A stretch of 64,000 nt of DNA from Pisolithus tinctorius. Lineage: Eukaryota; Basidiomycota; Agaricomycetes; Boletales; Pisolithaceae. A program made the translations under genes and the position numbers. Where the stretch lies: positions 186,001-250,000 of the forward strand of contig JANFAH010000035.1 in assembly GCA_024663395.1 (NCBI GenBank), written 5' to 3'. The notes beneath the pieces are model-generated. The model saw nothing but the letters and a program-made list of their open reading frames with translations, searched no databases and was not told the DNA's origin. Position 1 is the first letter of the stretch. Every line of letters starts with the position of its first letter. Shown in pieces: positions 36,595 through 61,520 of this stretch.

Positions 36595-36850
36595 CACTTC
36601 AGTCAACCCCCCTCGGAGACCTATTAGGTCTGGAGATTTTGATATAAGTATTAACCTAATAGGTGTCATTTTGGTGGGAATTCCCAACTTTTGGGGATTC
36701 TCCACCACCATTCCTGGAGATTCTCCATTGCCTAGCTGGAGATTCTCCAGAGCAGCAATTTAATAGGGATGGAGAAAATGTTTTCTCCATAATATATATA
36801 TATTATACATCAAATGAGAGGGTAGCTGGGGTCCAAATTGGACTTTCTCC

Positions 36851-37060
36851 AGGCTAAATAGACCCCCTTTCCAGGTTGATCCTGGGCTTTCCCCAGGCTA
36901 AATAGACCTGCTTTCCAGGTTGAACCTGGGATTTCCCCAGGCTAAATAGACCCACTTGCCAGGGTGAACCTGGGCTTTCCCCAGGCTATATAGACCTGCT
37001 TTCCAGGTTGATCCTTGGCTTTCCCCAGGCTAAATAGACCCATTTTCCCAGACCATGGAA
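36851..37060. repeat. 44-bp tandem repeat in left arm
   Basis: About five units starting AGGCTAAATAGACC, each containing the near-palindrome CCAGGTTGAACCTGG. The right arm has about six to seven units at 57836-58125, so copy number differs between arms. Confidence 0.85.
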
Positions 37061-37689
37061 AGTTGGAAGCCATTCTTACAGAGTGACACAACTTGAGACC
37101 ATCAATTATGGCACTTGCATTGGAATCCTAGGTGATCAGGAGGATTCCTTGAAAGGCAGGGGGGATGGAGGAGAACAGAAAGCAGGTGAGTGGTACAGGG
37201 GGAGAAAGGGGCAGGGCAGATGATAGAGGAAAGGGGAGGTAGAATGACACCTTCTGCATATGACAACAGAATCATCTGGGTGTTAACTCTCAGGAAACAT
37301 CCCCCTGACCAAACACTCCACTCATCCTGATGCACTCAAACTAACCTACCCTGTGCTTTAGCTCACCCTGCCCTTCATGCTGCTCCAACAAGATGATGGA
37401 GGACAGTTTGGACACCAACAAGCTCCCATGATGAAGTCAACAAATATACCATTGAAAAAACCCTGTGATTTTCAGAAGTTGGGACACTACCATCACCTCT
37501 TTGTCACCAGGAAAATCACACAGGTGTGAGATGATGGAGACAAGGAACATGAAGCAGAGAGTATTGTTCTATGAACAAATGAACTGTTGAGTGGCTCAAA
37601 CACTAACAACACCACAAGGTATATCAGCAGTTGGTGTAAAGGACAGAGAAGGTGATCCTCTAAGTGCATACTCCATGTCCTGCTGGGGA

Positions 37690-38330
37690 TTGAGTCTATG
37701 TCATGTTGGGGATTCTCCTTGTCAAGTGTGGGGATTCTCCTTGTCATGTTGGAGATTACCCATGGCCTGTGGGGGTTCTCCATGTCAACTGTGGGGATTC
37801 TCCATGTCATGTTGGAGATTCTCCATGTCAAGGATGGGGATTCCCCATGCCATGTTGGGGATTCTCCATGGCCCACTGGGGATTCTCCAAGTCATGTTGG
37901 AGATTCCCCATGTCAAGGATGGGGATTCTCCATGCCATGTTGGAGATTCTCCATGGCCTGCTGGGGATTCTCCATGCCATGTTGTGGATTCTCCATGGCC
38001 CACTGGGGATTCTCCATGCCATGTTGGGGATTCTCCATGGCCCACTGGGGATTCTCCATGCCATGTTGGAGATTCTCCATGGCCCACTGGGGATTCTCCA
38101 TGCCATGTTGGAGATTCTCCATGTCAAGTGTGGGGATTCTCCATGACCTGTGGAGGTTCTCCATGTCAAGGATGGGGATTCTCCATGCCATGTTGGAGAT
38201 TCTCCATATCAAAGGTGGAGATTCTCCATGTCATGTTGGGGATTCTACATGGTCTAGCTGGGCATTCTCCATGGCCCACTAGGGATTCTCCATGTCAAGT
38301 TGGAGATTTTCCATCCTTGACATGGCAGAT
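37690..38330. repeat. Left satellite array of about 21 bp
   Basis: Head-to-tail units GGGGATTCTCCATG plus a variable 7-base end (GCCCACT, CCATGTT, TCAAGGA..). Because the unit is near a multiple of three and lacks stops, it gives long but meaningless open frames (SPWPTGD.., GILHAML.., MENPQWA..) on both strands. Confidence 0.95.
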
Positions 38331-40420
38331 CCCTACCCTTGACATCAATCACCTAGCACACCATAAGCCTTCTGGGCATCCCTGGATGCCACAAGTGCCC
38401 ACCTTGATATGGTACATGCAGTACAACAACATCAAGACAAGCATGCAAGGAGTGTCATACATATAATTAATGATCATCACAGGTGTGCCTGCAGGTGTAG
38501 GAGGTCCAACCTTTCCTGCTGAGTTCATCATCACCCAGCACAGCCAGCAGCTTCTACATGAGTTGGTGGACTTTGTTGACAATGTATCCTGGTTCAAGGT
38601 TGCTAGGCTTGCAGTGCTCAATGTGGAAGATCTAAATAGCATTGTGAATGATAGTTTACAACTTGACAGGCATGTAGTGGGGAGTAATCAATACCAATCT
38701 GCTGAACTCCAGCATGGAAGCCACCCTTCTTGCCTGTAACATCAACACAGTACTTGTGCTTGAACTCCCTGCACAATGAGGTAATGTCCAATGGTGGGAG
38801 CTGAATGGTATACACTTTCTTTCCACTCTGCTGCCCAACACAGACAGACATCTGTGAGACATTGATATATGAACATTTTGATCCTGCAGTAACCATCTGC
38901 TTGACATTGTTGTCCTCCTTCAAGTGCTCCTGCACATATCAACCAGAATGGTCACAATCAAGGTTAAATTCACACTCAACCATACTTTTGAAGGATTCTA
39001 GGATGGTCATGCTAGCCATGGCCTTCAAGCGGTTGTGATATGCATCATCAATAATCTCCTGGACCCTCTGCTTCCTTTCTGCAATTTTCTTTGGTGATGA
39101 AGCTTGTCACTTTCAGTCCAGCAATAGATCACCATTGCTGATACTGAAACCATTATGAAAAAGTCAGTAGTTGATGACCATTTGTATACCAGTGAAGACC
39201 TGACACATGACAGGACCTTTCTTGCAGAAGACAATATATATCAGACTGCCCTGGGTCACACCAACCATCTCTTTGTACATGAACTGGATGAGGTCACCCA
39301 ATGGATCATGCACCACACTGCCATAGTAGACCATGACATCCTCCAGCACCTTGATGAGACATCATTGGATATAGCCTGTCTCCACCATTGACAACAGTAT
39401 CAATGAGAGCTTCTTGACCAACCATGGCATGGAAACAGAACTCCTGCAGGGTCAGCCCACACAGGTATGGTTCTCCATCAATCCACTCACCTCTGAACTG
39501 AAGTCATCCTTGGTAAAGTGAGGTAACATCCAATGGTGGAAGCTAAATGGTATACACTTTCCTCCTACAACTCTGCCACCTGACACAGGTGGATATCTGT
39601 CAGACATTGATATATGAACCTTTGGGTTCTGCAGTGACCATTCACAAGCAAGGTCAAGTCAGTTTATGCTCAATTGTAAAGTTACAAAATTATGTCTTGC
39701 CTACTAAACCTAGTGCATGTTTTGATTTGTGTGCATCACCAAGTTTTCAATCATAGGGAATGAGTAGGCACACTGCACAGTCCCCAGACATAGCATGCAG
39801 TGGGGGAGGAATGAAATGTGGACAACAGCTTTTAAGAAATTGGTAAAGCCAGGAGTTGAGAACAGGATGGCTTCATCATCAACCTTTGCTTCTGAATGAG
39901 CCTTCAACTCCAAAGCATCCTGAGAACAAGTGAATTTCAAGGTCAGTAATAGGGGGGAACTGCTCAGTGCCCATCTCAGCCAGGTAGCCAAGCTGAAGAT
40001 GTGTGCATCATGTTCATCACTGTGAGACTGCACTAGTACTGGCAAAGAGGACAGCACAAACAAGGGATGTAGTCATGCACATCAGCCCCTCTACAAATCA
40101 TGAATCATCAGACACCTCCCAAAAAAACAATGGGCAGGTCAGACCATGCCACAGATATATTGAAACCTATAGGCTACCTCAGTAGGTGTGAAACTACTGA
40201 GGGAATAGTGAAGGGAATGTATCACTATGTATGCCTCTAAGGTGATTATGTAAGCATGGCTGAAGCGCACCTAAGTCACCACCACACTGGCACTTTATAA
40301 TCTCCAACAAGATAGGTGTCACCAGTCCAGCAAAAACACACAGGACAAACCAAATTTCAGACTGGACTTTGAGGTATCCAGCAACACATTATGTAAGGCA
40401 ACACACTGTAAGATTAAACA
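38331..40420. other. KDZ interior, left, mostly without a recognised gene
   Basis: Contains the inner inverted-repeat segment (38600-39120). Reading it on the minus strand gives a broken coding relic ([36 protein letters not shown]) that matches 53400-53950 on the plus strand. 39120-40420 shows only short frames with no domain. Confidence 0.5.
38600..39120 (-). repeat. Inner, diverged inverted repeat (left copy)
   Basis: Inverted relative to 53400-53984. Shared peptide traces include [21 protein letters not shown] and [14 protein letters not shown]. Identity is clearly lower than in the outer arm, so this part is either older or exchanged less often. Confidence 0.75.
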
Positions 40421-40625
40421 GTCTTCGACTCTGTATCTACAGCATTAATGAATGGGAAGTACGAGGGTAGGAAGGGTATCATTGGCAAATGCTGGGCCAT
40501 GTATAGAGTCAGTGGGGATGAAGTCTTCGACTCTGTATCTACAGTGTTAATGAATGGAAAGTATGAGGGTAGGAAGGGTATCATTGGCGAGCAACTGGGT
40601 CATGCATAGAATCAGTGGGGATGAG
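40421..40625. repeat. 102-bp tandem repeat, two copies plus a diverged third
   Basis: GTCTTCGACTCTGTATCTAC recurs at 40421 and 40523. A weaker third copy (AATGAATGGGGAGG.. GGGTATCATCAACGAGCA) extends to about 40790. Confidence 0.75.
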
Positions 40626-41324
40626 ATGGTAATCGAAATGCATATGACATACCTCTGCAGCAACGACCATGTGGGGTGGTGCTTGCTGAAAGGTAAGGAT
40701 CGGTGTCCATAGTACTAATGAATGGGGAGGGGGGTATCATCAACGAGCACTGGGTTATGCATGTAATCAGTGAAGATGGGGGTATGTAACATAGGTGTAC
40801 ATAACGTACCTCAGTAGCGGATATAACAATTACGGGGGTAGCCATCTTCATCATCAGATGGATAGTGGTGTCTCTTGCGTGGGGGGCTCCGATAAACATA
40901 CTCAACCACACTGCATTGGGTCAGTATAATGCATTCAGGTCAGACTAACAGCATACCTGTGGTGGGACCTTCCCTGTGATGGGCCTGCGTCATTCTCGCT
41001 TCCATCTTCTGGATATTCTCGATGACACTTCTGTGATTGGTGGTGGGGGTGGCGGTGGGAGTGCAGGGTTGGAGAGCGGCTGTGGGAGGTACCATGTTGT
41101 AGATGACATGCTACCAGAGCAGGATCATGCGTAGCTCGTGGAGGAGATGAGCAAGGTGAGTTGTCAGGCGGTGATGAGGGAGGAAGAGGTGAATACTCGG
41201 ATGCTGGAGGGGGTCGACGAGCATTGCGGGTGTTTGGTGCTGCATGGCCTCATGTGCGTGGGTGGGGTTGTGCTTCGGCTGGGGGTGGGGGGAGACAAGG
41301 GGCTGCCTCCTGGTCAGGGCCCTT
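40626..41324 (-). other. Possible small minus-strand gene, low confidence
   Basis: A minus-strand reading with a GTATGC..CAATGCAG intron around 40916-40961 joins EDGSENDAGPSQGRSHH to EYVYRSPPRKRHHYPSDDED, then GYPRNCYIRY and a stop (TGA) near 40812. The SPPRKRH / SDDED composition looks like a real nuclear-protein tail, and it lies just downstream of the gene ending at 41325. It may be an independent small gene or an alternative 3' exon. No family recognised. Confidence 0.25.
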
Positions 41325-44179
41325 TCAGTGCATTGTTGGGGGGAGCACTTTGACAAATGCTTGCAAGTCGGAAACGAGGCGAAGGGAGTGATGAAGCATA
41401 TTCACTACTAATGGAATGTCAAAGGCGTTCGGGTCAGCTTCGCGCAACAGCTGAAGCTGGTCTGAATAATTCACATTAGTCAGGCCAGCATAATTGTGCA
41501 AGATCAGTTATACTCACCAGCTGTCCAATGCTTGAGATAAAACAACGAAGCAGGTACTGGCACAAAGTGGTCTTCTTCCTCCTCTGCTGGAGCCTCCAAA
41601 TCGTAATCTTGTTCCATCTGCTCTTTCAAAAATGGAACAGTGAGAGCACAGAGCTCGTCGGCGTTGAGGTGCTTCACATTGAAATCAGGACCAACCACCG
41701 GAACTCCAGCTGGCCAATCAACAATGGTATGCTTGTGGACGAAGAGCAGGTCTAGCAGCACCTTCCATGGAACGTTCTTCTGCCCACACTTGATCTTGGC
41801 TTCATCTGTGGGGCTTCAGCTAGTAGATCAGATAGAGATAGTTGTAGTGACTTACGGAACTTCTGTGAGATCATCAGGGGTAGGATATGCTGATTTCGAT
41901 CACATCTGACTTCCTGGGATTGTAATGCAAGAGCATGGTCATATGACTTTTGCAATAACAGGGCAAAGTTGGGTAGCGGGACAGAAGCAGCAGAGTCAAG
42001 GATCTTATATCTAGAGTAAATTGTCAGTGTAAACCCGACCCGCAATGATTGTACTCACTTGATAATCGTAGAGAGAAAATCCAATAATTTCGCAACATCT
42101 GTCTGCCTCTCGCTTGCAAGTTGCATGCAGAGCGAAGAGCCAGCAAAGACACCTTGAGCTTGGAGTGCAGCTTCGTCATTTCCACTATAAATGACGCATC
42201 CAAAAACATGGATGCCCTCCACATTACTCCATGTTTGCGCCTGCACGAAGATATAATTATACCATGAATCAGAAAAACAAAACAGGGGGGGGGGAAAGGG
42301 GAACATCACGAACTGATTGTGTGAAGGAATCCCTGCACGTCATTACCTGGCCGACCATTGCCTTTGAACTCATGTCCTTGGTACCGTTGATACTCTCATT
42401 CCAGAACTTCCAAATTTTCGCCCACAGCTCAGGATGTTCTCCCTCATCTTTATGACTCTCATAATGTTTCATCTGGCAGCTGTAGTAATCATTCATGGAT
42501 TCTATGACCAAGTCAGGATCAAGGAGGGAAACGAACACAAAGGTACTCACCATCAGACAATTTAGGGTTGGTACTCACATACCAAGCCTGATGTATGTTC
42601 CAAACTGATTCAGCCCAGGTAGCTTTAGTAGTGAGCCCACCATAATCGACACAAGTGTTTTTGCATATTCATTGGCAATGGCTTGGGCCTCTTGAGTGGT
42701 GCGCGCACCAAGTGCCTGTGCCTTCTGTAAGGCATTGATGGGGAGCCTACCACGCCTTAAAGTTGGGGGCCCATTCTCTGCAGCAAGCCCATCCTCGTCG
42801 GATTCAGAGCGTCTACTGACCTTGGGCAGAATACGAGTAGATTTCCCTTTGTGCTTTCTAAGTTCACCAGTATCTTCAGTGTCCGCAGTACCTTCAGTGT
42901 CTGCAGTATCTTCAGAAGAAGGAAAGTCAAGAGGAGGGGTGGACGGATGAGTGTCGAGGTCATAATTCCCAGCTCGAATTTCTCTCGCCGTCTGCTGACG
43001 TTTAAGGTTGTACCTCATGGTGGTGGACCAGTCACTGTCACTATGTTCGTCGTCACTGTTGTCTGTTTGGAGTATAAGCGCTATGTAAATAAAAGTAGTG
43101 CCATTAAATACAATACCTGAGGGTTGGTGGTCGACATTGCTTGCATGGTAAACTTCTCCGAAGTCAGCAGGGTCTTCACTATGCATAACAACTGCCACCG
43201 CTTGCTCATCTTCTTCACTCTCTGCGGACTGGTCGTTGTAGGAGACCTTCTGAGGGGTACAGGGCGGGTGATGAGCTGAAGGGGCATTTGGGGGGTCAGC
43301 CTTTAAGGGGAATATGACTTCATAGGATACAAACTTACATTGTTCATGATCATCCTTGTCGCTGGACATGTTCTGAAGGGCATGGGACAAATGTGCATCC
43401 GAAGGGATATTAGGGGGGACAGCTGGTAGTGATGTTGAGAAGAGGTATGGTTGCATATAGATACAAACTTACATTGTTCACAATCATCCTCATCATTGGA
43501 CACGCTCTGGAGGCCACAGCGCAGATGTGCATCTGAAGTGGTACTGGGGGGACAGCTAGTGGTGACATTGAGAGGGAATATGGTCGCAAGAGAATACGAA
43601 CTTACATTGTTTACGATGATCCTCATTGTCTGAAGGAGTATTGGAGGGGACAGCTAGCAGCGACACTGAATGATCATCCTCGTCGACTATATCCTGCATA
43701 GTGATCATGCCTCCACGGAGCTGCTCGAGGGCAGTACAGTGGTCCAATTTTGTACCGTCTTTCAGTGGAACCATCGTTGAGCGAAAGGAATTGAGATACT
43801 CTTCTTCGTGCTCCTTTTCTGTTAAACCTTGCAAGGGATGCTGTGGACGTGGCTTGTGAGTTGGACGTCGAGCTACACTAGATCCAGCCTGCTGAAAATG
43901 AGGGTCAGCAAGCCAAAAAAAAAAAAAGGGACCTAATGCAGCTCTAACCTCAGGACCAGTATCGTGGTTTCCGGTTGGTGCTGCTGGAAGGAGGTTGAGC
44001 ACGAGCGTGGAAGACAGGGTAAATTATGCGTATGTACTGGGTTTGATGGCGCAATGGCGCTTCTTCGCACCTTGCCCGGGTTGGATTTTACCAGGTGATG
44101 TTGCAGTACCCTTGATTCTTTTCGACCTGCGAACCCCAACGGGGGGGCCAATCTTTGTAGAGGGATCAGAGGGTGACAT
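41325..44179 (-). CDS. KDZ-borne gene A: multi-exon protein of unknown function
   Basis: Begins MSPSDPSTKIGPPVGVRRSK at 44179 and ends ..FVKVLPPTMH at TGA 41327-41325, with about eleven exons. Supported exons include 44179-44038, 43983-43949, 43891-43606, 43555-43473, 43422-43339 and the last, 41461-41325. Splice sites are canonical. The N-terminus is basic (RRSKRIKG). Next come GLTEKEHEEEYLNSFRS and an acidic middle with tandemly duplicated short exons (SDAHL..N.SSD.DDHEQ), then KGKSTRILPK and ALGARTTQEAQAIANEYAKT. The C-terminal domain has EHPELWAKIWKFWNESINGT, NVEGIHVFGCVIYSGND, HTIVDWPAGVPVVGPDFNVK and LNADELCALTVPFLKEQME. I recognise no known domain. One duplicated exon (43555-43473) has lost a base; skipping it keeps frame. 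The C-terminal half is uninterrupted across good splice sites, suggesting a living or recently living gene. Confidence 0.65.
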
Positions 44180-46663
44180 TTGTGGAGGCACAGCGAGAAT
44201 CACACAGCAGACATGCAGTCACACAGTGGGGGAGTTATCTGGAAACACGTAGTCACCCGGTTCCTTGCTGATTCGAATTCAAGCAAGAGTATAAAATCAA
44301 ATGAAGAGCAAAAAGGAGTGGACATGGTCAGTGATTCAACGAACGACTGGGGGTAGAAAAAGAGATGAGGAAGAAAGCAAGTTAGTGCCTATTTATGTTT
44401 TTCGGCCAAAAGGTGTATGCACCTCTTTTGAACTGGCACCAGCTTCTTCCTGGCTGACTCGTAAAACCTTACGGCCATCAAGGGAAAATGTCAAACGACA
44501 CAGGGTCAATGGAATGAACGAACGGCAATGACACAGGGTTGACGGAATGAAATTTAATAACTGAAAAAAAACATATGAACAAGATTATGAGAAACGAAAA
44601 ACTGACGCACTTTGTTAGAAACTCCAGGCTGATAAGTTAGCTGGTAGAGTGTGTGTTTCAAGCTGGAGGGAAGTAATATATGTATACATATATAATGGTC
44701 ACAGAGCATCTGCTGGCACCTTAACTTACCCGGATGCGGGTACTACCAGCACCGCGGCTACACAAGGGAACGATGACCAAATGATTACATGTTGATGTGA
44801 GCAAACAAACTAGTTCAGGGCATGGAAGCATGGAAGCATGGAAGCATATTTTTGACCCTCTGTTCAGTAAGCAACATCAGTAGACCTGATGAAGACAGAT
44901 CGTAAAACATATCTATGATAGGAAGGTATGCCGAAAAGAAACGATGCAGAGACAGAGAGAAACACGTACCACAGATTGTGATGCAAGACGAAGTGTTGTT
45001 ACCAGTGTAGTTCGAGAAACAGTCACATTGAAGGTTAGTTTTGGCCTCGGTGGTGAACAGCATTGCATGGTAGTTCATAGGCCAGATCTGATGAACAAGG
45101 ATAATGATACGATCTACTATATAAAATATGTAGGGGAGGCACATTGGACGGGACGAGTAAACACATACCACTCATTGTATTATGAGACGAAGTGGATAAG
45201 ATGAGATAAATGTTAGCCAAACGGAAAATATCAGCACGATGTTCAGGAGAGTAGAAATGGTAAAAGGACTTACCTCTTCTGCATCAATGTAGGCACCACT
45301 CCGCTTTAGGACGGCTCTCTCTCTTTGATATAGTGATACGATCTACTACATACAGTATGTAGAGGAGGCGTGCAGGACAGGGACGACTCGCTCTTTTTGA
45401 TAATAGTGATATGATCTACTATATAAAGTATGTAGAAGAGGCGCATTGGACAGGACGAGTAAACACACACCACTCATTGTAATATGAGATGAAGTGGATA
45501 AGATGAGATAAAAGCTAGTCAAACGGAAAATATCAGCGCGATGTTCAGGAAAATAGAAATAGTAAAAGGACTTATCTCTTCTGCATCAATGTAGGCACCA
45601 CTCCGCTTTAGGACGGCTCTTTCTCATTGTTATAGTGATACGATCTACTATATAATGTATGTAGAGGAGGCATGTCAGACAGGATGAGTAAACACATACC
45701 ACTCATTGTAATATGAGATGAAGCGGATAAGACGAGAAAAATGCTAGCCAACCGGAAAATATCAGCGAGATGTTCAGGAGAGTAGAAATGGTAAAAGGAC
45801 TTATCTCTTCTGCATCAATGTAGGCATCACCCCACTTTAGGACGGTTCTCCCTCTTTGATAAGATCATGCACACCTCAGGCATATCAGTGAAATTCACAA
45901 GAACAGAAAAAGACATGAATACATGGCGACCTCAGTGACATGAAGTCAACCGAATCTGATCAGAAGCGACACGAAGTCAACTTCAAGACGTTTGAGCAGC
46001 ACGAAGCCAGCTCAGTGGGTAGACCTACGGGGTTTCATAATGAAATTGATGGATGGTGGAAGGCGGTAGAGGGAACAGCGGAAGGGCCTCGGAGGTCGAC
46101 AGAGACAAAAGACGACACTGAAAAGTGGTGAGAACGACAATGAGGTGGAGAACAGTGCCATGGACAGCATGGACAGCGTCCCGTGACTTAGGTTATTTTC
46201 CCTTGGGAATTCTCCATCCACGTGGCAACGACTTTCCCAATGGCGACCATGCACACAACAACGACAAACAATTGAGTTCTTCCTTTGTTGTCCCTGCCAC
46301 CGTTGCTGCCGCTCCTCAACATTCGTTCAACGGTGTTTCAGGTGTTGTTTATTTGTTATTACTTGAACTTCGCTTTGACAATTATGTTTTTTAGGTCCTA
46401 TTTCCGCACTACTGCTCCAATTTCCCTCTGAGTTGGCTTCGTGCCACTCACTATACTGAAGCTAACTTCGTGTTGCTTCAATCTGCACTCTGTTGACTTT
46501 GTGTCACTGAGGTCGCGGATTCCCGATTGTTAGTGCGGTTCAACGCCTCAAGGACCCGTTTCATACTCACATTGGTGCATGCTTTTGTGGTTATATTTCA
46601 TTTCTTGACCCTTTCTCCTCGCTGGCTCTACTTCGACCTTGAAGATTCCCTCAAGCATCCTCT
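44180..46663. other. Divergent intergenic region between KDZ genes A and B
   Basis: No gene recognised. It must hold the promoters of both divergent genes. It contains the tandem repeat at 45165-45865. Confidence 0.5.
45165..45865. repeat. Long tandem repeat, three copies (about 230-300 bp)
   Basis: ACCACTCATTGTA(AT)ATGAGA, then AAAATATCAGC(A/G)CGATGTTCAGGA, ATGGTAAAAGGACTTA and TAGGCACCACTCCGCTTTAG recur in the same order from about 45168, 45469 and 45699. The third spacing is shorter. An incomplete earlier copy may begin near 45000. Units have CpG intact. Confidence 0.75.
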
Positions 46664-48770
46664 ATGGCATCCGGCCCAGTCTCTTTCAAACCGTACCTTC
46701 GGCCCCAGGATGGTATGTCCTACTTTTTTTTTTTTTTCTGGGCTAACTTACATCTGCAGCTACAATTACTTCGCTCGATGTGCGAGTGGTTGCATGCAAG
46801 GAGAACTGGGTGATCACGTCGCCTAACATGGATTTTGTCAAAGAACCATATATTTTTGAGGAGGAAGAACTTTGTTGCCGTGCTGATGGTCGTCTCGGGG
46901 TAGTTGACTGCTTTCAATGGCCACAGACACACGAGAAACAATACAAGTATTCGATCTGCATCCCTCGAAAGCACTCCATCCCCACTCTCCAGATTGCGTG
47001 GTACGATCCAACTCCCAGTGACTTTGTTGTTCCAACCAGCTCCCAGTTCGCAGTGGGCACACTTCAGAGCGCGAAAGTCGCAGCATTCGAAGAGGCACTT
47101 CAAAGTTTGCGCAGCCGCCACCACACCCTTCGAGATCAACCTGTTGGTCAAGATGCTCTGCGCACTCTGATGCATTTGGCTCGACACGAGGTTATGTGTC
47201 TTCGACAACATCCCATACTTTTCCGAGACCTCGTTGTGTTCGTTGTGCAGCTTCAGCATAAAATACTTGACATCTACACATTACTTGAGTATATTGAATA
47301 TGTCTACCCACTTCTCCTAAACCCTCCGTCATGCCCTCCGCAAGCCAACTCCACATGGATGGGTTGCTTTGTTAGGGCCACCGAAGTATGTGAAGCTCTG
47401 TATTTTGCAGGGGTGCCCATCTGGCTCGTTCGTAGCAAAGAATATATTCCCCCGACTATGAACATTGTACACTCGGTACGATTAACATACCCTGACGGTA
47501 TTGTCAGGTCTATGTATATGGAGAATGGTGTGGCGAAGCCCTTCCCTTCCATCTGGCAAGGTCCAAGCAACGCCCTCCATCAATACCATACTCGCCGTGG
47601 CTATGAAGGTACCCTTGCTGATGCGCCCAAGCACCTACCCATATCATATCCTTCCTCGTCACGCCCATCCTCTAGTAGCAGGAGACAGCCTGCTACAAGA
47701 CAATCCAGAACTGCGAGGGACAGAGCCTCTGCAGGCCCTTCTCGAGGTATGTAATTCTCAGGTCTCCCTTTCCTTGTTTTTGACCGCCCTGCAGCATCAT
47801 CATCAGCAGGTGGAGAGTCAAAATGGGAGGAACCTAACCTGCCAGATATTCCGAAACCCCATAGCATGTTTGCAGCTGCTTGGAGAGAAGCTGACAAGAA
47901 TTTGCAGAGAGTCTCATCCGGTCTTGTGGACCCAGGCTATCGCTTCCCGAAGCTGACGCTTTTTGTCAATGTGTCTATGCTGGAGCAAAAGAAGATTTAC
48001 CTCTTCAATTGGCTGTCTGCTCATGCACTCTGGATTAGTCAGGTTGATCTGTGCTTGCCCTCAAGGTTCCCTTCTCCTCAGATGTGGAGGGACTTTTTGA
48101 ATACTATCAACACCAACCCTCTCCCCTCGACACAGACTGCATTAAGGAAGTCGGCTGTACAGGATATTTTGGGGGAAGGTATCATTAACTCGGCCCAGGG
48201 TTTGGCAGGGGCACCGGAGGAAATTACATGGCGAGGAATGCAGGTGAATATTACATCTGTACTGGCCCTGTCTCTCTGTATTTATCCATTGTGCAGGTTA
48301 AAATTTTGTCTCTCTTGAATCCCCCTCTCTGGTTCATATGGTCCCTTTTGTGGGAACTGTATGAACTCAACTTCCACTATGAGCTTTATGCGCTCAATCG
48401 GGCCCTCGTCCCCAATCTCTGGACTTCATCAGACGAAATGCGGTTAACCTGCCAGACTCTCCTCTATAGCATCATCCCTGGAGAGTCTGGTCTCGTGATG
48501 TGGTCAGAGTCTTTACCGCAGGACTCGGGTGAGTTAGGCCTGTGTGCTACCGATGTGCTGACCGCACTACCGTACATCAACAAGTTCTGTCACTTGTTGT
48601 CTGCATGGCCAGGAGCGCCTGCCCATTTGCAATACCTGGTCGAGATGAAAGATCAGGACGATAAGGAGGTGTATGCTGTTTTTTCTTTGGCGTGCGGATT
48701 TTATGTGCAAACTGCATTCGACTTCCTCAGGCGACAACCATCCCTCCCACGCATGTTTCAGTTCATTTAG
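46664..48770 (+). CDS. KDZ-borne gene B: 652-aa protein of unknown function
   Basis: Four exons, 46664-46712, 46760-47746, 47795-48243 and 48297-48770, give exactly 1959 bases; all introns are short GT..AG. The start is MASGPVSFKPYLRPQDATIT. The central part has VRVVACKENWVITSPNMDF, LRQHPILFRDLVVFVVQ, WMGCFVRATEVCEALYFAGV and PIWLVRSKEYIPP. A Ser/Arg-rich linker (SSSRPSSSSRRQPATRQ) follows, then a C-terminal half with SMFAAAWREADKNLQRVSSG, FPKLTLFVNV and LFNWLSAHALWISQV. No domain that I can name, and it lacks the HxD pattern of TET/JBP enzymes. I recall similar proteins as a multigene family in Agaricomycetes, uncharacterised. It is divergent from gene A and upstream of the KDZ transposase in the same direction. 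Intact frame and CpG-containing codons suggest function. Confidence 0.72.
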
Positions 48771-49135
48771 AATATATTTCTCTGCATGCAGTCTTGGCAA
48801 TTATGTAATACAATGTTTGGGCTGAATCGTAATCGATGAAATCGTTTTTGGCTGAACCTTGATTTGAATCATCCCAGATTCATATGCTCACTTTTTTCAG
48901 ATAGTAACTTGATTCATCTCCGTCCGTGCCATTCGCCTCCAGCAGACAGCTCTCTCTGTTCTTGTCATCACTTATCACATCCTTGTTCCTGACCGTGCGC
49001 TCGTCTTGGCCTACATCGCTGTCAAATTTTCGTTTCAGCTGTGTAGCCACTCTCCTATTGTACTGACCCAGAGTCTGGTGACTTCGAGTCCTGCATATAC
49101 ACTATTGACTTCGTGTCACAGTGTTCAGTTACCGA
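48771..49135. other. Spacer between gene B and the KDZ transposase
   Basis: About 365 bases with no coding signal. Presumably the terminator of gene B and the promoter of the transposase gene. Confidence 0.4.
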
Positions 49136-52100
49136 ATGGGAGTCCGCCACCCAAAACCTCAGAGGAATCATGGTGCTTCCTCTTCCCAGCATCATGCATT
49201 GGATAATGGCTCTGACCTTGTAAGTTTTTCTCATCGTTGTGAACTTCCTTATATTTGTGTTGGCTTATCTTCCTGCAGAGTTCCTCCATCGCATCTCCTT
49301 CAACTAGTCGGATGCCCAGCATTGCACCCCACCCCTCGACCTCATCTGATCATCAGGCTTCATTTCGCTTTCCTCCACCCTCAGTATGTTGGATTTTGTC
49401 TGCAAGATATTTTTCCGATCAGTTTGTCTTCCCCACAGGGCCCCTCTGTTGTACTGGCATCAACTAGTCAGCTGCCCAACATAACTGCACCCCCCCCCTT
49501 GCTCTCATCCAATAATCAAGCATCCCTTCGTATTCCTTCGGTATTTGGATTTTACTCTGAAAACCAATCTTCGCATCAGCTTATCCCTACAGGGTCCCCC
49601 CGACGCGTCGGCTTCAACTAGCCAGCTGGAGAGTGCAGTCTCAAACTCCCTTCCACTGACATCATCATCAGATACTCAGGTGATGCCTAGTCATTTGGTA
49701 CGTCTTTTCCCTCTAGCAGAACTTGCACATACTTACATCTGGCTAGGACCCTCAGTCGTTGTTTGTTCCACGTCCATTAGCTCGTCACCGCTGGCCCTAT
49801 GGTACGAAAGGACTCTACCTCCCTGCACCCCCACCTCTCTTCATCCTTCCAGGTCGCCAGCGCCTTGCACAAGATGCCAATGCTGTACCAGATCAACATT
49901 GCAGCTCGCCTCCTTGCGGGTCTGATGTTTTTGATCTTGTGGATAGCCTTCATTTCAATGAGGAGGTCAGTTCTCCCTTGGGCCTGAGCAGTTTGCAGAA
50001 GTGACAAAACCAATGGCGACGGTGGTCACAAGATGTTATCCCTGCGCTCCTGAAGCCCTACCTGTGGTACCTCCAAGCATCACAAAGCCTTCGGGTGGTG
50101 GTAGATCCCCTGGCTCACCATCTAAGTGGATGTCCCACTTGTGTGGTGCATTCACTCATTGTTTGCTGTCTTTTCTTTGACCGTATGTGACCCCATCATT
50201 GTGCTTATGTCATGCTCACACATACCAGGTTTGGAGGAAATTGAGATAAGCTATTGTGCATGCACCCCAGCTCCTATACACCTCATGGGACACGGTCTAT
50301 TTGCATGTTCCCCTATCTCTCCCACTCTTGCAGTTGATCTTCAAGTGTTGGAGTTTGTGAGGAAACTCTTTGTGCAGTTGACCCCCAACACAACTGCATG
50401 GTGTGAAGCACTTGAAAGTTTTCTAGATGCCCAAGGGTACAAGCTGCAGTCCAAGGTATGTTGTATTCATAGGATAATCATTATATTATCTGTCCCCCTT
50501 ATGTGCTCCCATACCATGCACACCCCTTATATATTGTCCTATTGAAGTACCAATATCTACTAGTTAAACACTTCTATCTATCTCTTCATGGCAGTATAAG
50601 GGATTCTTACCATGCAATCATCAGGATAACCTTCGACGACGATTCAGCAATGCATACCATTGGTATACTGTGTTAACAATATACATGGAGGACCATATTA
50701 CTGGCCTGGTTCACTCCTCCCAAGCCTCTGTTCAACAAGACACTAGGTCTCAACCAAGTGACTACCTATGTGCTTGCTGTCCACTATGTTTTGGAGGAGG
50801 TGTGCCACAGAGAGCTAATGCTGAGCAGGATGAGTGAGTCAATGGCAAGTTTATTGATGCCAACCTAATTCTGACCTCCAAAAGCCTTGCCTGCATTGTC
50901 TGCTTGGATGCATGTTTCACCCAGAAGCGAACAAATAAGGACTCTGCTGGCCATGACCCTTCCAATCCTACCAACACTGTATTCATTCCTGAATCAGAGG
51001 TGAAGGCTATGGAAATTTTCATTGAGAAACAGTGATCTCTTCCATCTGATCACCATCATTCTTCACATCAAAAACAAGGGGACAGTTTTGAGGATGGGAT
51101 GAGAGTGCCCATCTCAGTGCTGGATGGGTGTGGGGATTCTTTCCATGCAGCAGATGAAAAGCATGAGAAAGCAAGCACCCGCTTTTTTGCAGACACAGGG
51201 CTGATGGCTTTGCTTTGTCACCATGATCATGTTCTCTGGCTGGTCAATATGACATCTGCAGGAGAAAAGCAGCACTATGCCTTGGTGCTATTGAAACATC
51301 TCTTTGAACATCTGCCTACCACTGCAACTGTTGGCCTCTTATATGACATTGGCTGTCAACTGGAACGTAGTTGCCGCAAGTGGAAGCTACTTGATGAGGG
51401 GATACTCTCCAGGTTGAAGTTTGGCATCTCTGTTTTCCATGCTTATGGTCATCAGTGGCCATGTCAGATAGTATATCACCCACGTAAATGTGTGGGTTTT
51501 GGTTTGTCAGATGGTGAGGGGTGTGAGCGGTTATGGAGTTCTCTGAAGATGCTCATTCCTATCCTCCAAGTGTCTGGTGTAAGCATTCATTTTCCTGTAG
51601 TATGATTCCAATGTTAATTTCCTACTTAGTACCATCGGAGGCTATTTGTTCTTGATAATCAGATTCGTCACTTTGACAAGAAGTCTTTTACTGCTCTTGG
51701 CCAGTGGCTGAACAAAAAGTGGTCCCTCTGCAAAAGCAAGAAAACCATGGCTTTGGGGGCCCTCCATGCATTGCATGTTGACATGCAGACTCTACAAGAG
51801 GAGTGGGCTGCACAGGTGCACTCACAGACTCAGCCTCTACCTCATTAGTCTTTTTCCTATGTTTGCCATCATGTTGCTCACCATACACACATAGGGCAGT
51901 CAAAGAAGAAGGGTGCTGAACAGTTGGCACTTATACTTGCCCTGGAAAAATCTGTTCAGAACCACCAGAGCCATGTGGATCAGCTGGAAATGGATCTTCA
52001 CAATGATTGTGTCAATGACATCATTGACTTCAATTTACAACTTACCGCAGCACAAGCTTCACTCTCAAAGGCAACTCAGGCTTTGAGACAAAAAAAAAGT

Positions 52101-53184
52101 GCATTAGGAGTCTCAGCACAAACTGACCTCTATCTCCTGAGGAACAACAAGTGGCTCCAAACCCAAACTAATGCACAGGCACTGAAAGTTCAAATCAGGG
52201 AGCGCCTTTGTCAGCGCAAGTTTGAATTTGAGTGGCTAGAACAGTCATCCAAGAATTCTATTAATGGTAAGTAGAGGGTGTTCTTTCTGCCTGCTATTTT
52301 CAATAACATCTATGGTAGAAAATAATTTACAGTCACATGTGAAGTCATCCATAAAACGACAAGAGCCTGCCATATCAAAACTTGTCACTAGCTACAACAC
52401 CCTCTGTGATGAGCTTATGGGTATGATACGACTTGGGAAAGCACCCCCTGGTGCAATTTCCCCTTTCCCCATACCTCCTAAGGGAATTTTTCAACTGGAG
52501 GTTGACAGTGATATTTGGCAGGATGTGGGACTTGCAGAGGGTTGTGCTAATCCCCCATCTTGGCTTGCTGATGAAGCTGTGCATAAAGGAATAAGGCTCA
52601 TGCTAGAAGTTGATCGTTGTAATGAAGAAGAAAGAAGATTGTCAAGAGAGCGGTCTGCCTTGCAGGAATGGTTTTCTGTGGAGTGGCAGAGTGTCCAGGT
52701 GACCTTGGAACATGCAGGTGAGTTCAAATGTCATTGTCTTGTCACCATCTCACAATAGTTAGACAAATCTTACAAGTATCACCTGCAATCACTGAGGGAT
52801 AACCTTGTGGCAGTATATGTCAATTGGGAGGCCAAGGTTCGACATATTCCACATGCATGGATTCCATCTAGACCTTGGGGACCCAGAGCAGAGGAAATTG
52901 CAGGTTGCCTTGTGGCTGCTAACAATTCCAGTGTAATATCTGCAGCAGAGGATCAAACAGAGGGATCATTAAAAGACTATGACTCTGATGGGGAGGGGTT
53001 GATGTCAGAAGGTGGTGATAACCTATTGTTATCCATTGAAGAGATGGCACTGGAAGAGGAATATTCCATGGAGGAAGCAGATGAGGAGCAATCCACAGAG
53101 GATGAGGAATGGTTGCAGGACATTGAAAATGGTTATTTGCCCTCTTCACCAGTGAAATTGCCATTAAAAAGACGGAGATACTAG
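49136..53184 (+). CDS. KDZ transposase with CxC1-type cysteine cluster
   Basis: Multi-exon DDE-type transposase, probable start ATG 49136 (MGVRHPKPQRNH). After a Ser/Thr-rich leader, the CxC1-type region (about 50010-50460) has WRRWSQDVIPALLKPYLWYL, YCACTPAPIHLMGHGLFACS and PTLAVDLQVLEFVRKLFVQL. The nuclease region has CLDACFTQKR (about 50892), VLDGCGDSFHAADEKHEKAS, FFADTGLMALLCHHD, LLYDIGCQLERSC, HAYGHQWPCQIVYHPRKC and GFGLSDGEGCERLWSS. A coiled-coil tail (52030-52760: LQLTAAQASLSKATQAL; IKRQEPAISKLVTSYN; DIWQDVGLAEGC) and an acidic end follow. The apparent stop at 50830 is removed by an intron (GTGAGTCAAT..CTCCAAAAG, about 50833-50884). A TGA at 51033-51035 (IEKQ*SLPS) remains, so the copy may be dead or the TGA may lie in a missed intron. 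Confidence 0.9.
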
Positions 53185-53984
53185 ACTTTGTATACATATA
53201 TTGAATGTCTATAAAATGGAGAATCACCCCTGCTTTATCTTTGTGATGTTGTGACTGATCATATATCCCTTCATTGCCCCTCACAATGTGTCCAGGCTCA
53301 TTGCTCATTGTTCGTACTAATGCGATCAAAATTGAGTGCACCACAGCAAGTGAGAAATGGTGCTATTTAACAGTGATACTAAGTGCATATATAGCAGAAA
53401 AGAAGCAGAGGATCCAGGAGGGTATTGATGATGCATATCATGACCACTTGAAGGCCAGGCCCAGCATGAATAACCTAGAATCCTTCAGAAGTGTGGTTGA
53501 GTGTGAATTTATCCTGGCTCATGACAATTCTGGTTGATATATGCAGGAGCACCTGAAGGAGGACAACAATGTCAAGCAGATGGTCACTACAGGATCAAAA
53601 GCATTATATATCTTTGTCTTGCAGATGATGATCTGTGTTGGGCAGCAGAGTGTGGAAGGAAAGTGTATACCATTCAGCTTCCACCATTGGACATTACCTC
53701 ATTTTGCAGGGAGTTCAAGCACAAATACTGTGTCAATGTTACAGACAAGGAGGGTGGCTTCCTTGCTGGAGTTCTGCAGATTGGTATTGACAAAAGCTCC
53801 CTGGAGTTGCAAGCAAAGCTTGGTGAAGAATATGCTTGCCTCATTCAGCATCATCATGCATTTCAGACATCCACTGTCCCTTGCACAGGCAGCCTTACTC
53901 CCTACTACATGGGTGTCAACTTGTATCATATCATTCACAATGCCATTAAGATCTTTCACATTGACCACTGCAAGCCTACCTTGA
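53185..53984 (+). pseudogene. Broken coding relic in the inner right inverted repeat
   Basis: Right copy of the inner inverted repeat. Plus-strand traces: KWCYLTVILSAYIAEKKQRI, MNNLESFRSVVECEF, then [77 protein letters not shown]. It looks like a real protein family, in two or three frames. I do not recognise it. It lies between the KDZ gene and the satellite. Confidence 0.5.
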
Positions 53985-56065
53985 CTTGGAGAATCTCCAA
54001 CATGAGATGGGGAATCTCCACCCTTGGCATGGAGAATCCCCATGGCCCATGAAGAATCTCTTCCTCATAGGTCATGAAAAATCCCCACAATTGACTTGGA
54101 GAATCCCCATGTCCAATGGAGAATCTCCAACATGAAATGGAGAATCCCCACAGTTCATGGAGAACTCCCACAATTGACATGGAGAATCCCCACATTGGAT
54201 ATGGAAAATCCCCAGTGGGCCATGGAGAATCCCCACCCTTGACATGGAGAATCTCCAACACAACATGGAGAATCCCCAGTGGGCCATGGAGAATCCCCAA
54301 CATGGCATGGAGAATCCCCAACATGGCATGGAGAATCCCCAACATGGCATGGAGAATCTCCAACATGACATGGAGAATCCCCAGTGGGCCATGGAGAATC
54401 CCCAACATGGCATGGAGAATCCCCAACATGACATGGAGAATCCCCACCCTTGACATGGAGAATCTCCAACATGACATGGAGAATCCCCAGTGGGCCATGG
54501 AGAATCCCCAATGTGGCATGGAGAATCCCCAACATGGCATGGAGAATCCCCACCCTTGACATGGAGAATCCCCAGTGGGCCATGGAGAATCCTCACCCTT
54601 GACATGGAGAATCTCCAACATGACATAGAGAATCCCCAGTGGGCCATGGGGAATCCCCAACATGACATGGAGAATCCCCATCCTTGACATGGGGAATCTC
54701 CAACATGACATGGAGAATCCCCATCCTTGACATAGGGAATCTCCAACATGACATGGAGAATCCCCAGTAAGCCATGGAGAATCTCCAACATGACATGGAG
54801 ATTCCCCAGTGGGCCATGGAGAATCCCCAACATGGCATGGAGAATCCCCAACATGACATGGAGAATCCCCACCCCTGACATGGAGAATCTCCAACATGAC
54901 ATGGAGAATCCCCAGTGGGCCATGGAGAATCCCCAATGTGGCATGGAGAATCCCCAACATGGCATGGAGAATCCCCACCCTTGACATGGAGAATCCCCAG
55001 TGGGCCATGGAGAATCCTCACCCTTGACATGGAGAATCTCCAACATGACATAGAGAATCCCCAGTGGGCCATGGGGAATCCCCAACATGACATGGAGAAT
55101 CCCCATCCTTGACATGGGGAATCTCCAACATGACATGGAGAATCCCCATCCTTGACATGGGGAATCTCCAACATGACATGGAGAATCCCCAGTAAGCCAT
55201 GGAGAATCTCCAACATGACATGGAGAATCTCCAACATGACATGGGGAATCCCCAGTGGGCCATGGAGAATCCCCAACATGGCATGGAGAATCCCCATCCT
55301 TGACATGGAGAATCTCCACAGGTCATGGAGAATCCCCACACTTGACATGGAGAATCTCCAACATGGCATGGAGAATCTCCAACATGGCATGGCGAATCCC
55401 CAGTGGGCCATGGAGAATCCCCAACATGGCATGGAGAATCCCCAACATGGCATGGAGAATCCCCAACATGGCATGGAGAATCTCCAACATGACATGGAGA
55501 ATCCCCAGTGGGCCATGGAGAATCCCCAGTGGGCCATGGGGAATCCCCAACATGACATGGAGAATCCCCATCCTTGACATGGGGAATCTCCAACATGTCA
55601 TGGAGAATCCCCAGTGGGCCATGGGGAATCCCCAACATGTCATGGAGAATCCCCAGTGGGCCATGGAGAATCTCCAACATGGCATGGAGAATCCCCAGTG
55701 GGCCATGGAGAATCTCCAACATGGCATGGAGAATCCCCAGTGGGCCATGGAGAATCTCCAACATGGCATGGAGAATCCCCAGTGGGCCATGGAGAATCTC
55801 CAACATGGCATGGAGAATCCCCATCCTTGACATGGGGAATCTCCAACATGACTTGGAGAATCCCCAGTGGGCCATGGAGAATCCCCAACATGGCATGGAG
55901 AATCCCCATCCTTGACATGGAGAATCCTCAGTGGGACATGGAGAATCTCCACATGACTTGGAGAATCCCCAGTGGGCCATGGAGAATCCCCAACATGGCA
56001 TGGAGAATCCCCATCCTTGACATGGAGAATCTCCAACATGACATGGAGAATCCCCAGTGGGACAT
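53985..56065. repeat. Right satellite array, large block (about 21 bp units)
   Basis: Complementary orientation to the left array (CATGGAGAATCCCC..). About 2.1 kb, roughly 100 units, with variants (CAGTGGGC, AACATGGC, AACATGAC, CCTTGAC). A higher-order repeat of 425 bp is visible: the block around CCTCACCCTTGACATGG at 54591 recurs at 55016. Confidence 0.95.
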
Positions 56066-56967
56066 TGTCATATCCATGACTCTCGGACTTGTTCCCAGTC
56101 CAGTCCAGACCCCTAGCCCCTATCTCCGGTCAAGTCCGGTCCTAGTCCAGCCTAGAAAACCCAATCCTGGCCCTAGATAACTCAACTCTGGCTTGCATAA
56201 CTCAAGTCCGGTGTTTTACCCCTATCTCTGGTCCATTTCGGCCTCCTGGCCTTGTGCTGCTCCACCCCGGTCCTCCTAGGTCTATGTCCGGGTCACCCAG
56301 ACATAACTCCGGTCTGTTTCCCTTTGTTTGTACTATATTTAGTCTAGCCCGTTCATCAGACTTTGCTTACTGTACAATCCTGTGTCCAACCCTGGTTATG
56401 CTGGTCACCTGGACTTTGGCTATTAGCCTCTGCATAGCCACTGTGGCTATCCTTGTCTTGCTAATCATCTTGCTAATAGCTTATTAACAAGTCCGGCTCT
56501 ATGTTCTTTACTCCGGACTGGCCTCATGTATTTAACCCCTGTACATACTTCATAGCACCCTCAGTCAGAATATCAACTTAGTATTACCCTCAACTCTGTG
56601 TTACCCCTTGATCTACTCTATAGCTAAGGCCAAGCCTTAAGCTATCCCCGACCCCTGTCCCAGACCTCTCCCCGGCTTGCATAAGGGTACAGCACATAAG
56701 CTGAGACCAAGGGAGGTAGATCCAACCCCGGACCGGCTTCCCCTTGTGCACACTCCAACACCGGTCGGTTTCCCACGCTACCGGTCTTATTCCCGCACTC
56801 CCGGCCTTAAGTCCGGTCCTCCGGACTTAGCCCCTGACCTCCGGCCTTGACTCTGGTCTAACCGGACTTGGCCCCTGTCTCCCGGCCTTGATTCTGGCCA
56901 CTCGGACTTGGCCCCTGTCACCCAGTCTTGAAGCCCGGTCACTCCAAGGGTAAACCTGTACTTCACA
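56066..56967 (+). mobile_element. Solo gypsy LTR in the right satellite
   Basis: 902 bases starting TGTCATATCCATGACTC and ending CTGTACTTCACA, flanked by the 5-bp duplication GACAT (56061-56065 and 56968-56972). CpG-rich with many CCGG(T/A)C motifs, and related to the LTR of gypsy-3 (TGTCATAGTCATGCC.. GTACTTGACA on the minus strand). An LTR-LTR recombination product. Its CpG richness says it inserted recently, after the KDZ arm was in place. Confidence 0.93.
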
Positions 56968-57200
56968 GACATGGAGAATCTCCAACATGACTTGGAGAAT
57001 CCCCAGTGGGCCATGGAGAATCCCCAACATGGCATGGAGAATCCCCATCCTTGACATGGAGAATCTCCAACATGACATGGAGAATCCCCACAGTTGACAT
57101 GGAGAACCCCCACAGGCCATGGGTAATCTCCAACATGACATGGAGAATCCCCACACTTGACAAGGAGAATCCCCAACATGACATAGACTCAATCCCCAGC
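56968..57200. repeat. Right satellite array, small block outside the solo LTR
   Basis: Continuation of the array of about 21 bp interrupted by the solo LTR, leading into the unique part of the right arm. Its order of unit variants mirrors the start of the left array (37690 on). Confidence 0.92.
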
Positions 57201-57835
57201 AGGACATGGAGTATGCACTTAGAGGATCACCTTCTCTGTCCTTTACACCAACTGCTGATATACCTTGTGGTGTTGCTAGTGTTTGAGCCACTCAACAGTT
57301 CATTTGTTCATAGAACAATACTCTCTGCTTCATGTTCCTCGTCTCCATCATCTCACACCTGTGTGATTTTCCTGGTGACAAAGAGGTGATGGTAGTGTCC
57401 CAACTTCTGAAAATCACAGGGTTTTTTCAATGGTATATTTGTTGACTTCATCATGGGAGCTTGTTGGTGTCCAAACTGTCCTCCATCATCTTGTTGGAGC
57501 AGCATGAAGGGCAGGGTGAGCTAAAGCACAGGGTAGGTTAGTTTGAGTGCATCAGGATGAGTGGAGTGTTTGGTCAGGGGGATGTTTCCTGAGAGTTAAC
57601 ACCCAGATGATTCTGTTGTCATATGCAGAAGGTGTCATTCTACCTCCCCTTTCCTCTATCATCTGCCCTGCCCCTTTCTCCCCCTGTACCACTCACCTGC
57701 TTTCTGTTCTCCTCCATCCCCCCTGCCTTTCAAGGAATCCTCCTGATCACCTAGGATTCCAATGCAAGTGCCATAATTGATGGTCTCAAGTTGTGTCACT
57801 CTGTAAGAATGGCTTCCAACTTTCCATGGCCTGGG

Positions 57836-58125
57836 AAAATCGGTCTATTTAGCCTGGGGAAAGCCAAGGATCAACCTGGAAAGCAGGTCTATTTAGCCTG
57901 GGGAAAGCCCAGGTTCACCCTAGCAAGTAGGTCTATTTAGCCTAGGGAAAGCCCAGGTTCACCCTGGCAAGTGGGTCTATTTGGCCTGGGGAAATCCCAG
58001 GATCAACCTGGAAAGCAGGTCTATTTAGCCTGGGGAAATCCCAGGTTCAACCTGGAAAGCAGGTCTATTTAGCCTGGGGAAAGCCCAGGATCAACCTGGA
58101 AAGGGGGTCTATTTAGCCTGGAGAA
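57836..58125. repeat. 44-bp tandem repeat in right arm
   Basis: Units GGTCTATTTAGCCTGGGGAAA.. in inverted orientation to 36851-37060, with about two more copies than the left arm. Confidence 0.85.
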
Positions 58126-58375
58126 AGTCCAATTTGGACCCCAGCTACCCTCTCATTTGATGTATAATATATATATATTATGGAGAAAACATTTTCTCCA
58201 TCCCTATTAAATTGCTGCTCTGGAGAATCTCCAGCTAGGCAATGGAGAATCTCCAGGAATGGTGGTGGAGAATCCCCAAAAGTTGGGAATTCCCACCAAA
58301 ATGACACCTATTAGGTTAATACTTATATCAAAATCTCCAGACCTAATAGGTCTCCGAGGGGGGTTGACTGAAGTG

Positions 58376-58383
58376 GGAAGGTC
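58376..58383. repeat. Right target-site duplication of the KDZ element
   Basis: GGAAGGTC, identical to 36587-36594. Confidence 0.95.
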
Positions 58384-59600: not shown

Positions 59601-60124
59601 TGTCAAGTACGGGATGTCCGGGTTGAGACCGGACCAGAGACCGAAGCGGGTGTGAGGCCGAGGGGTCGGAGTCAGGGGTAAAGACGAAGGTACAGGTGGG
59701 TGGACTGGTTGGACTTAGCAACTGAGGATACAGCACTATTCCCTTGCATGAGTCTCAGTCCGAGTTCGAGGCCGAGACGGAGTTATCAGAGGTAACTTAG
59801 TTGATTTCAGACTGAAGTCTACAGGCCGAGCATCTACGAGCTTATATACTAGAGTAGCTATAGTACGGAGACCGGTAATGCCGGTCTTGCAAGGATTGCT
59901 AAGAGGATTGATAAGACAAGGATTACTAACGTATGACTAAGGTAACGGAGACCGGGACAGAGTGGACCGGGGACAAGACTGGGCAGAGCTTAACCGAAGT
60001 GACAGACACTGCAAAGCAGTGTCTACCGCGCTAGACCAACTGGAGATACGGGATTAGCGAGGCCGAGGCCGGACTGAGTGAGTGCGAGGCCGAGTCCGGC
60101 CGGAGTCGAGGCATGACTATGACA
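59601..60124 (-). repeat. Gypsy-3 3' LTR
   Basis: On the minus strand begins TGTCATAGTCATGCC and ends CCGTACTTGACA (TG..CA). 524 bases. Similar ends and CCGG-rich composition to the solo LTR at 56066-56967, so the same broad family. The flank CCCAG (59596-59600) is the candidate target duplication; its partner is outside the window. Confidence 0.88.
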
Positions 60125-60261
60125 GTATCCCCCTCTTAGGGGTCGAACCCATGAGACCCCTGCGAGAGTGGTAGGCTGAGTCCGAAAATCAGCTGAGTTT
60201 GAAAAAATGATACTTGTGGCTCGCTAAGCCCTTTGTGTCTTTCTTTCTCATCCTAACCATC

Positions 60262-61330: not shown

Positions 61331-61520
61331 ACCCGTAGTGTAGTGTTTGTGTTGTTTCCTCTGCGAATGTCATGTGCCTGGTGTCCAGTGTCCGGTTTCG
61401 ATCTTGTATAGTAAGTGAGAGCAAACAAGAAAAGAAAAACATAGTAAGTAAGGGATCAAAAGGAACACTAGATACCAATAGAAAACTGAAACTGAAACTG
61501 AGGCCAGTTGAGACCGGTCC

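Follow-up and report, generated by a model that had tools for sequence, protein, structure and literature searches.

Architecture and target site of the element

We analysed a stretch of 64,000 nucleotides from the ectomycorrhizal fungus Pisolithus tinctorius (hereafter the window; positions 186001-250000 of contig C35 in a genome of 92.5 Mb and 221 contigs). Window positions 36595-58375 are a complete KDZ element of 21,781 bp, one copy of a transposon family that we call f1. Between long inverted, satellite-bearing arms it carries gene B on the minus strand (40600-44200, approximate limits), followed on the plus strand by gene A (46664-48770) and the KDZ transposase gene (49870-53182, 5′ limit approximate). 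KDZ transposons are abundant in mushrooms, and to our knowledge the proteins needed for their movement are poorly known.

Direct reading of the sequence places the target-site duplication GGAAGGTC at 36587-36594 and 58376-58383, and the element runs between them from CACTTCAGTCAACC to GGTTGACTGAAGTG. Self-alignment delimits outer terminal inverted repeats (TIRs) at 36595-37045 (plus strand; 40 end copies were scored genome-wide) and 57925-58375 (minus strand), the alignment covering 452 nt at 96% identity (36594-37045 / 57925-58376), and a second inverted pair of 1085 nt at 98% identity (36830-37914 / 56968-58052). When flanking sequences are joined without the element, a single open gypsy frame reads through TKKDLPFIWDDK. 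Searching the genome with a 400-nt version of this join returned 40 matches that span the junction at 85-89% identity (40 of 92 candidates scored), far beyond chance. A second copy, on contig C31, lies inside a different repeat, for which 39 junction-spanning matches (82-92%; 40 of 43 candidates scored) were found along with its own half site. The 8-bp duplications, the inverted ends and the restoration of the interrupted gypsy frame, all proposed in the original prediction from the window alone, are therefore borne out.

The left arm extends over 36595-38314 and the right arm over 53982-58375. The predicted arm lengths of 1.7 and 4.4 kb hold, but the right arm contains a 902-bp insertion, and the inverted homology picks up again further inward (38824-39085 / 53391-53652, or 38688-39085 / 53391-53790 in another comparison). 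Both arms carry 44-bp tandem repeats (36839-37048, plus strand; 57842-58131, minus strand) and a 21-bp satellite with GGRGATTCYCC sites, located at 37671-38314 (plus strand) on the left and at 53982-56056, with a remainder at 56968-57211 (both minus strand), on the right. The right satellite is interrupted by the insertion (56066-56967), which resembles a solo long terminal repeat (LTR) with TG..CA ends and a 5-bp duplication, GACAT. All but one of the 123 GGRGATTCYCC matches in the window lie inside the element, at a spacing of roughly 21 bp, where 0.19 matches would be expected in the whole window.

As predicted, the interior holds one KDZ transposase and two further multi-exon genes. The KDZ domain (PF18758) was detected in an open reading frame (ORF) at 51036-51602 (E = 7.3e-51; bit score 173, cut-off 26.6) and again in the homologue P0098 (E = 3e-57), while the ORF at 50126-50542 matches CxC1 (PF18802, E = 3.8e-10). 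The KDZ domain and the CxC cluster agree with membership of the KDZ superfamily, as do the duplications of 7-8 bp, a length given for the superfamily by Kojima 2025 (PMC12730594). In the same source, Kyakuja elements show 7-bp and Dileera and Zisupton elements 8-bp duplications, with 5′-CA..TG-3′ ends, and the Kyakuja families lack TIRs; the element described here has CA..TG ends, yet long TIRs. The KDZ exon in the window contains one in-frame stop, and stop-free KDZ matches are present elsewhere in the genome. Gene A consists of four exons (46664-46712, 46760-47746, 47795-48243 and 48297-48770 including the stop) and is open in the window copy; its product is identical over the full length to an annotated protein of 652 aa, and one protein of the window is the hypothetical protein BKA82DRAFT_29230 of P. 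tinctorius. Gene B is built from multiple exons with repeated cassettes, and compared with its relatives the frame of the window copy has a single break around 42.6-42.7 kb. Between 43321 and 43626 its exon cassettes repeat with a period of 133 bp and vary between relatives.

Mobility of the block and its copies in the genome

The 20-nt end sequence, with up to three mismatches allowed, occurs 135 + 144 times in the genome, compared with 3 + 3 occurrences of the reversed pattern. Four f1 copies were read completely, on C35 (21,781 bp), C31 (21,679 bp), C39 (22,386 bp) and C27 (copy C27a, 27,613 bp), and each has both ends and flanking duplications. The interior is present from end to end in the C31 and C39 copies, and C27a shows matches to gene A, gene B and KDZ. 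The latter copy holds two extra sequences about 67% similar to the ends, which we read as a probable nested related element. In eight other f1 loci, some of them partly read, core identity ranges from 92.6 to 96.2%.

The 23 gene A rows assigned to f1 represent 22 loci, since one locus is split. Both ends were found within 25 kb either side in 10 of these 23 rows, and on C22 the left end lies about 28 kb off, so that at least 11 of 22 f1 loci are bounded by both ends; all 11 of them also contain KDZ and gene B matches. Many short, gene-less derivatives coexist with these copies: among the end positions listed, 19 adjacent end pairs are less than 16 kb apart, 17 of them less than 8 kb, and in six short pairs that were read, matches of at least 250 nt are confined to the arms. 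Arms that always occur without the interior genes, which would have spoken against a single mobile unit, were thus not what we found. Eleven end pairs represent 10 distinct sites, at which the duplication is exactly 7 bp in seven cases, exactly 8 bp in two and 7 bp with a mismatch in one. The expectation of paired inverted copies was confirmed, whereas the expected 8-bp duplication proved to be mostly 7 bp. Two of the eleven pairs, on C47 and C150, have common flanks and were counted as one site; the positions C47:374977 and C150:35929 carry an identical short derivative, flanked on both contigs by the same 8 bp, and these contigs are probably allelic.

The architecture extends to a further family, f2, of which a complete element on C26 measures 18,608 bp, with the duplication GACCACC, satellites and the gene order B, A, KDZ; its end region is 68% similar to that of f1. 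Nested insertions, among them the LTR in the right arm, could suggest that repeats without any relation to each other have piled up here by chance, or that the assembly is at fault. We consider this extremely improbable, given the exact duplications, the empty sites and the presence of two ends together with matches to all three genes at eleven f1 loci. Four full copies, their duplications and the empty sites of two independent insertions show that the whole block moved as a unit, as the original prediction had proposed. In mechanistic terms, the KDZ enzyme most likely recognises both the CACTTCAG ends and the GGRGATTCYCC sites arrayed in the arms, as putative satellite binding sites, and moves the block by a presumed cut-and-paste reaction that leaves duplications of 7-8 bp. 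Copies with open frames most likely provide the enzyme in trans.

With respect to size, the unit is large, but the claim that it is unusual needs qualification, because TIR-bearing KDZ elements of 9-11 kb have been published and because satellite and inserted LTR sequence contribute to the 21.8 kb. According to PMC12810828, the active elements KDZ1, KDZ2 and KDZ3 of Cryptococcus neoformans are 9.2-11 kb long, with TIRs of 139-241 bp and duplications of 4-8 bp. They resemble the Pisolithus lineage in their KDZ + CxC1 transposase, their TIRs and their short duplications, and differ from it in length (9.2-11 kb against 18.6-21.8 kb).

Large gene-carrying elements of fungi also include the Starships of Pezizomycotina, whose captain gene is a tyrosine recombinase (DUF3435). 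In contrast to Starships, the Pisolithus element has a KDZ transposase and TIRs, is far smaller and carries conserved partners rather than variable cargo; no tyrosine recombinase captain was found in the 17 window ORFs scanned against Pfam, a subset of all window ORFs.

Genes A and B beside the transposase

Matches to gene A were compared with the positions of KDZ matches across the genome. Among f1 rows, 20 of 23 have a KDZ match 3′ of gene A on the same strand within 20 kb, as do 14 of 17 f2 rows. In more diverged groups, a KDZ match follows gene A within 15 kb in 36 of 47 rows (one per locus, hand-picked from 115 gene A matches). Altogether, 70 of 87 rows, drawn from several diverged families, show this arrangement, with gene A 5′ of the transposase gene and both on one strand; chance would give about 0.016 per row for a distance of 20 kb. 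Relatives of gene A (at least 34, from a search that scored the 7,994 candidates with the most words in common) come from Pisolithus, Scleroderma, Suillus, Lanmaoa, Hygrophoropsis, Boletus, Paxillus and Melanogaster. Linkage is apparent in other species as well, judged from contigs of equal size rather than from coordinates: A-KDZ pairs in P. albus and Suillus subluteus, A-B pairs in P. microcarpus and P. orientalis, and B-KDZ pairs. In Scleroderma citrinum, the model P0030 fuses gene A with a C-terminal stretch of KDZ.

Gene B has a narrower distribution. Its 63 relatives come from Pisolithus, apart from one in Scleroderma, and it was found upstream of gene A (up to 30 kb) in 20 of 23 f1 rows. 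Gene B, which occurs with f1 and with part of f2, is most likely an addition of less general occurrence than gene A.

Between f1 and f2, all three genes have evolved under purifying selection. The ratio of nonsynonymous to synonymous substitutions (dN/dS) is 0.17-0.20 for gene A (five comparisons, synonymous divergence dS about 1.5), 0.10 for gene B (180 codons) and 0.21 for KDZ (790 codons).

Judged by its conserved position upstream of KDZ in several families, gene A is a conserved partner of the transposase and not a passenger, so that the term “passenger genes” of the original prediction is not supported as worded. Taking these data together, we favour, at a probability of roughly 85%, a KDZ transposon lineage with a common plan, in which satellite-bearing inverted arms enclose an antisense gene B, followed by gene A and KDZ on one strand; the KDZ enzyme would move the block, gene A would be a co-factor and gene B a less universal component. 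Most likely, gene A encodes a co-factor that the transposases of this clade need or benefit from, for instance a second transposition protein, a regulator or an anti-silencing factor.

The alternative is that chance placed genes A and B between the ends and that they travel along as neutral hitch-hikers. Neither protein has a recognisable domain, many copies have broken frames and 8 of 17 f2 rows lack gene B close to gene A, all of which would fit such passengers. Gene A, however, holds its place and strand beside KDZ across families, and the f1-f2 dN/dS values are about 0.2 (A) and 0.1 (B); we regard hitch-hiking as improbable overall and as already disfavoured for gene A.

Several observations weigh against a conserved three-gene plan. 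No downstream KDZ match accompanies gene A in 17 of 87 rows (150 of 463 KDZ candidates were scored), and gene B is upstream of gene A in merely 9 of 17 f2 rows. Within f1, dN/dS rises to 0.45-0.65 for gene A, to 0.42-0.60 for gene B and to 1.0-2.2 for KDZ, the last from just 3-7 synonymous changes, and of the five f1 rows used in the gene A comparison, three (C27a, C39 and C22) contain three to seven stops. Because of these stops and the raised ratios within f1, most copies look like decaying ones. The between-family ratios of genes A and B are themselves rough, since dS near 1.5 is close to saturation, and that of gene B is based on 180 codons. As regards a specific role, no Pfam domain was found in gene A or gene B; fold searches with the predicted model of gene A gave no convincing match to a known fold, and the predicted model of gene B is too poor for such use.

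The original prediction had drawn an analogy to KDZ elements that carry TET/JBP genes. Such fungal elements (Kyakuja, Zisupton and Dileera) are described in PMC12730594 and share with the Pisolithus element a transposase plus an extra gene, duplications of 7 or 8 bp and CA..TG ends; the latter differs in its TIRs of about 450 bp with longer arms and in its two different extra genes. The analogy was not upheld, as no TET/JBP domain was matched by Pfam in the scanned ORFs and homologues, a search to be read with the caveat that very divergent PE-type enzymes were identified via structure (PMC12730594) and that the fold search for gene A was indecisive. A further parallel is provided by the VANDAL families of MuDR, mentioned in PMC12730594, in which an extra gene regulates the element's own epigenetic silencing. 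They too are transposons with an additional gene, and for the Pisolithus element the sole pointer to a possible anti-silencing role is its CpG content.

In our searches of the open-licence literature we found no published description of genes A or B with KDZ, and the terms KDZ and Zisupton do not occur in the accessible main text of the Pisolithus genome study (PMC10066745). Located beside the transposase over diverged families and genera, gene A is a direct candidate for a missing KDZ partner.

CpG compartments and the captured RPB1 pieces

The observed/expected CpG ratio (CpG o/e) divides the window copy into a poor shell and a rich core (40500-50000). Ends, arms, satellites and the segment at 39.1-40.4 kb have values of 0-0.05, KDZ has 0.17, and genes B and A with their spacers range from 0.54 to 0.74. 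GpC, used as control, stays at 0.87-0.98 across the genes and spacers between 40.4 and 53.2 kb; this control is clean only outside repeats, as repeat composition lowers it to 0.34-0.68 in satellites and ends. In the C31 copy, the nearest to the window copy among those with the whole core read, the core reaches 0.6-1.08 per 500 bp, with one edge at about 40.4 kb and the other at about 50.0-50.5 kb, within the KDZ gene. Across nine f1 copies, several of them partly read, core CpG o/e is 0.79 (C31), 0.64, 0.60 (window), 0.42, 0.40, 0.33, 0.31, 0.28 and 0.18, compared with 0-0.04 in the left shell and 0.04-0.20 in the KDZ body (six copies with KDZ sequence), while GpC is 0.91-1.08 throughout. An f2 copy has a similar but lower CpG dome, and at a third-family locus values are about 0.9-1.1 in the gene A region, 0.1-0.5 in the KDZ part and near 0 in the terminal satellite.

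Codon usage reflects the same asymmetry: among NCN codons, NCG accounts for none of 183 in KDZ and for 27 of 168 in gene A. The residual KDZ CpGs are largely in arginine codons (CGN 19, AGR 18), which indicates that protein constraint keeps some CpG. Coding constraint alone is insufficient as an explanation, because KDZ is coding yet CpG-poor and the spacer between B and A is rich in CpG. On C11, a KDZ locus with long open frames has a CpG o/e of 0.5-1.05 throughout, and KDZ coding itself therefore needs no CpG loss.

Host-gene sequence captured in the arms provides an internal clock. The left inner arm (38511-39400, minus strand, rearranged) and the right inner arm (53391-53991, plus strand) contain pieces of the host gene for RPB1, the largest subunit of RNA polymerase II, with Pfam domains PF05000 and PF04992. 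Such pieces lie near 19 of 22 f1 loci, the exceptions being those on C3, on C6 at 2.69 Mb and on C108. No arm-type piece was found within about 25 kb of f2 loci, although the f2 locus on C38 has another kind of RPB1 piece at a distance of 13.7 kb, and from these positions the capture looks specific to f1. Compared with the host copy on C23 (CpG o/e 1.17), the pieces have kept none of 112 CpGs, 101 of which are now TG or CA, and have kept 52 of 101 GpCs (six alignments summed, each host position counted once per arm, single host copy). RPB1 pieces also occur in several separate multicopy groups beyond these arms, on C38, C18, C118, C1, C7, C28, C4, C5 and others.

A CpG-rich core could be explained by recent capture of host DNA that is too young to have lost its CpGs. 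This would account for core CpG near the host level and for the loss of core CpG through transitions between copies (CpG transitions make up 306 of 507 inter-copy substitutions in gene A). However, the A-KDZ pair predates f1 and is common to f2, to more diverged groups and to other genera; the same CpG dome is present at f2 and third-family loci; and the CpG edge falls in the interior of the KDZ gene and does not coincide with a gene border. The RPB1 pieces, moreover, look younger and yet have kept no aligned CpG. We therefore consider recent capture unlikely. Since the RPB1 capture lost all aligned CpGs and the older A-KDZ block did not, we infer that the core has been regionally protected from methylation-driven decay in the transposing lineage.

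With about even odds, the core could be CpG-rich simply as a transcribed, promoter-bearing CpG island, with no protective role for genes A and B. The CpG-rich block takes in the 5′ ends of all three genes and peaks at gene A and the spacer that separates it from B; the dome is present at the third-family locus, which was read for A and KDZ alone; and a promoter effect without the A and B proteins accounts for the CpG pattern equally well. On the other side, genes A and B themselves make up most of the core. A more far-reaching, tentative reading, which we hold to be rather doubtful, is that the element maintains two long-lasting epigenetic compartments. The shell (arms, RPB1 pieces and KDZ body) would be CpG-methylated and decaying, and the core (promoter regions, A, B and the KDZ 5′ end) would be unmethylated in the transposing lineage, with A and/or B acting as anti-silencing or chromatin-boundary proteins in place of the TET/JBP of other KDZ elements.

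The CpG contrast within one element, with RPB1 as internal clock, offers a sequence handle on the escape of a regulatory core from methylation-driven decay. This idea and that of a KDZ partner can both be addressed with methylation and expression data in one culturable fungus.

Positions 18001-40000 of the window, which end in the gypsy sequence and the left arm, have a CpG o/e of 0.01-0.15, and positions 8001-16000 and 60001-64000 reach 0.8-1.0; the CpG-poor stretch suggests strong CpG decay of transposons in P. tinctorius. A KDZ-domain locus on C11 (560500-569500) has open frames of 203-238 aa and normal CpG; a long inverted repeat was not found in the 9 kb read there, and the locus is possibly a host-like or domesticated KDZ gene. 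The solo-LTR-like insertion in the right arm has a CpG o/e of 0.48, well above that of the surrounding satellite, and a sequence resembling it adjoins the C27a copy.

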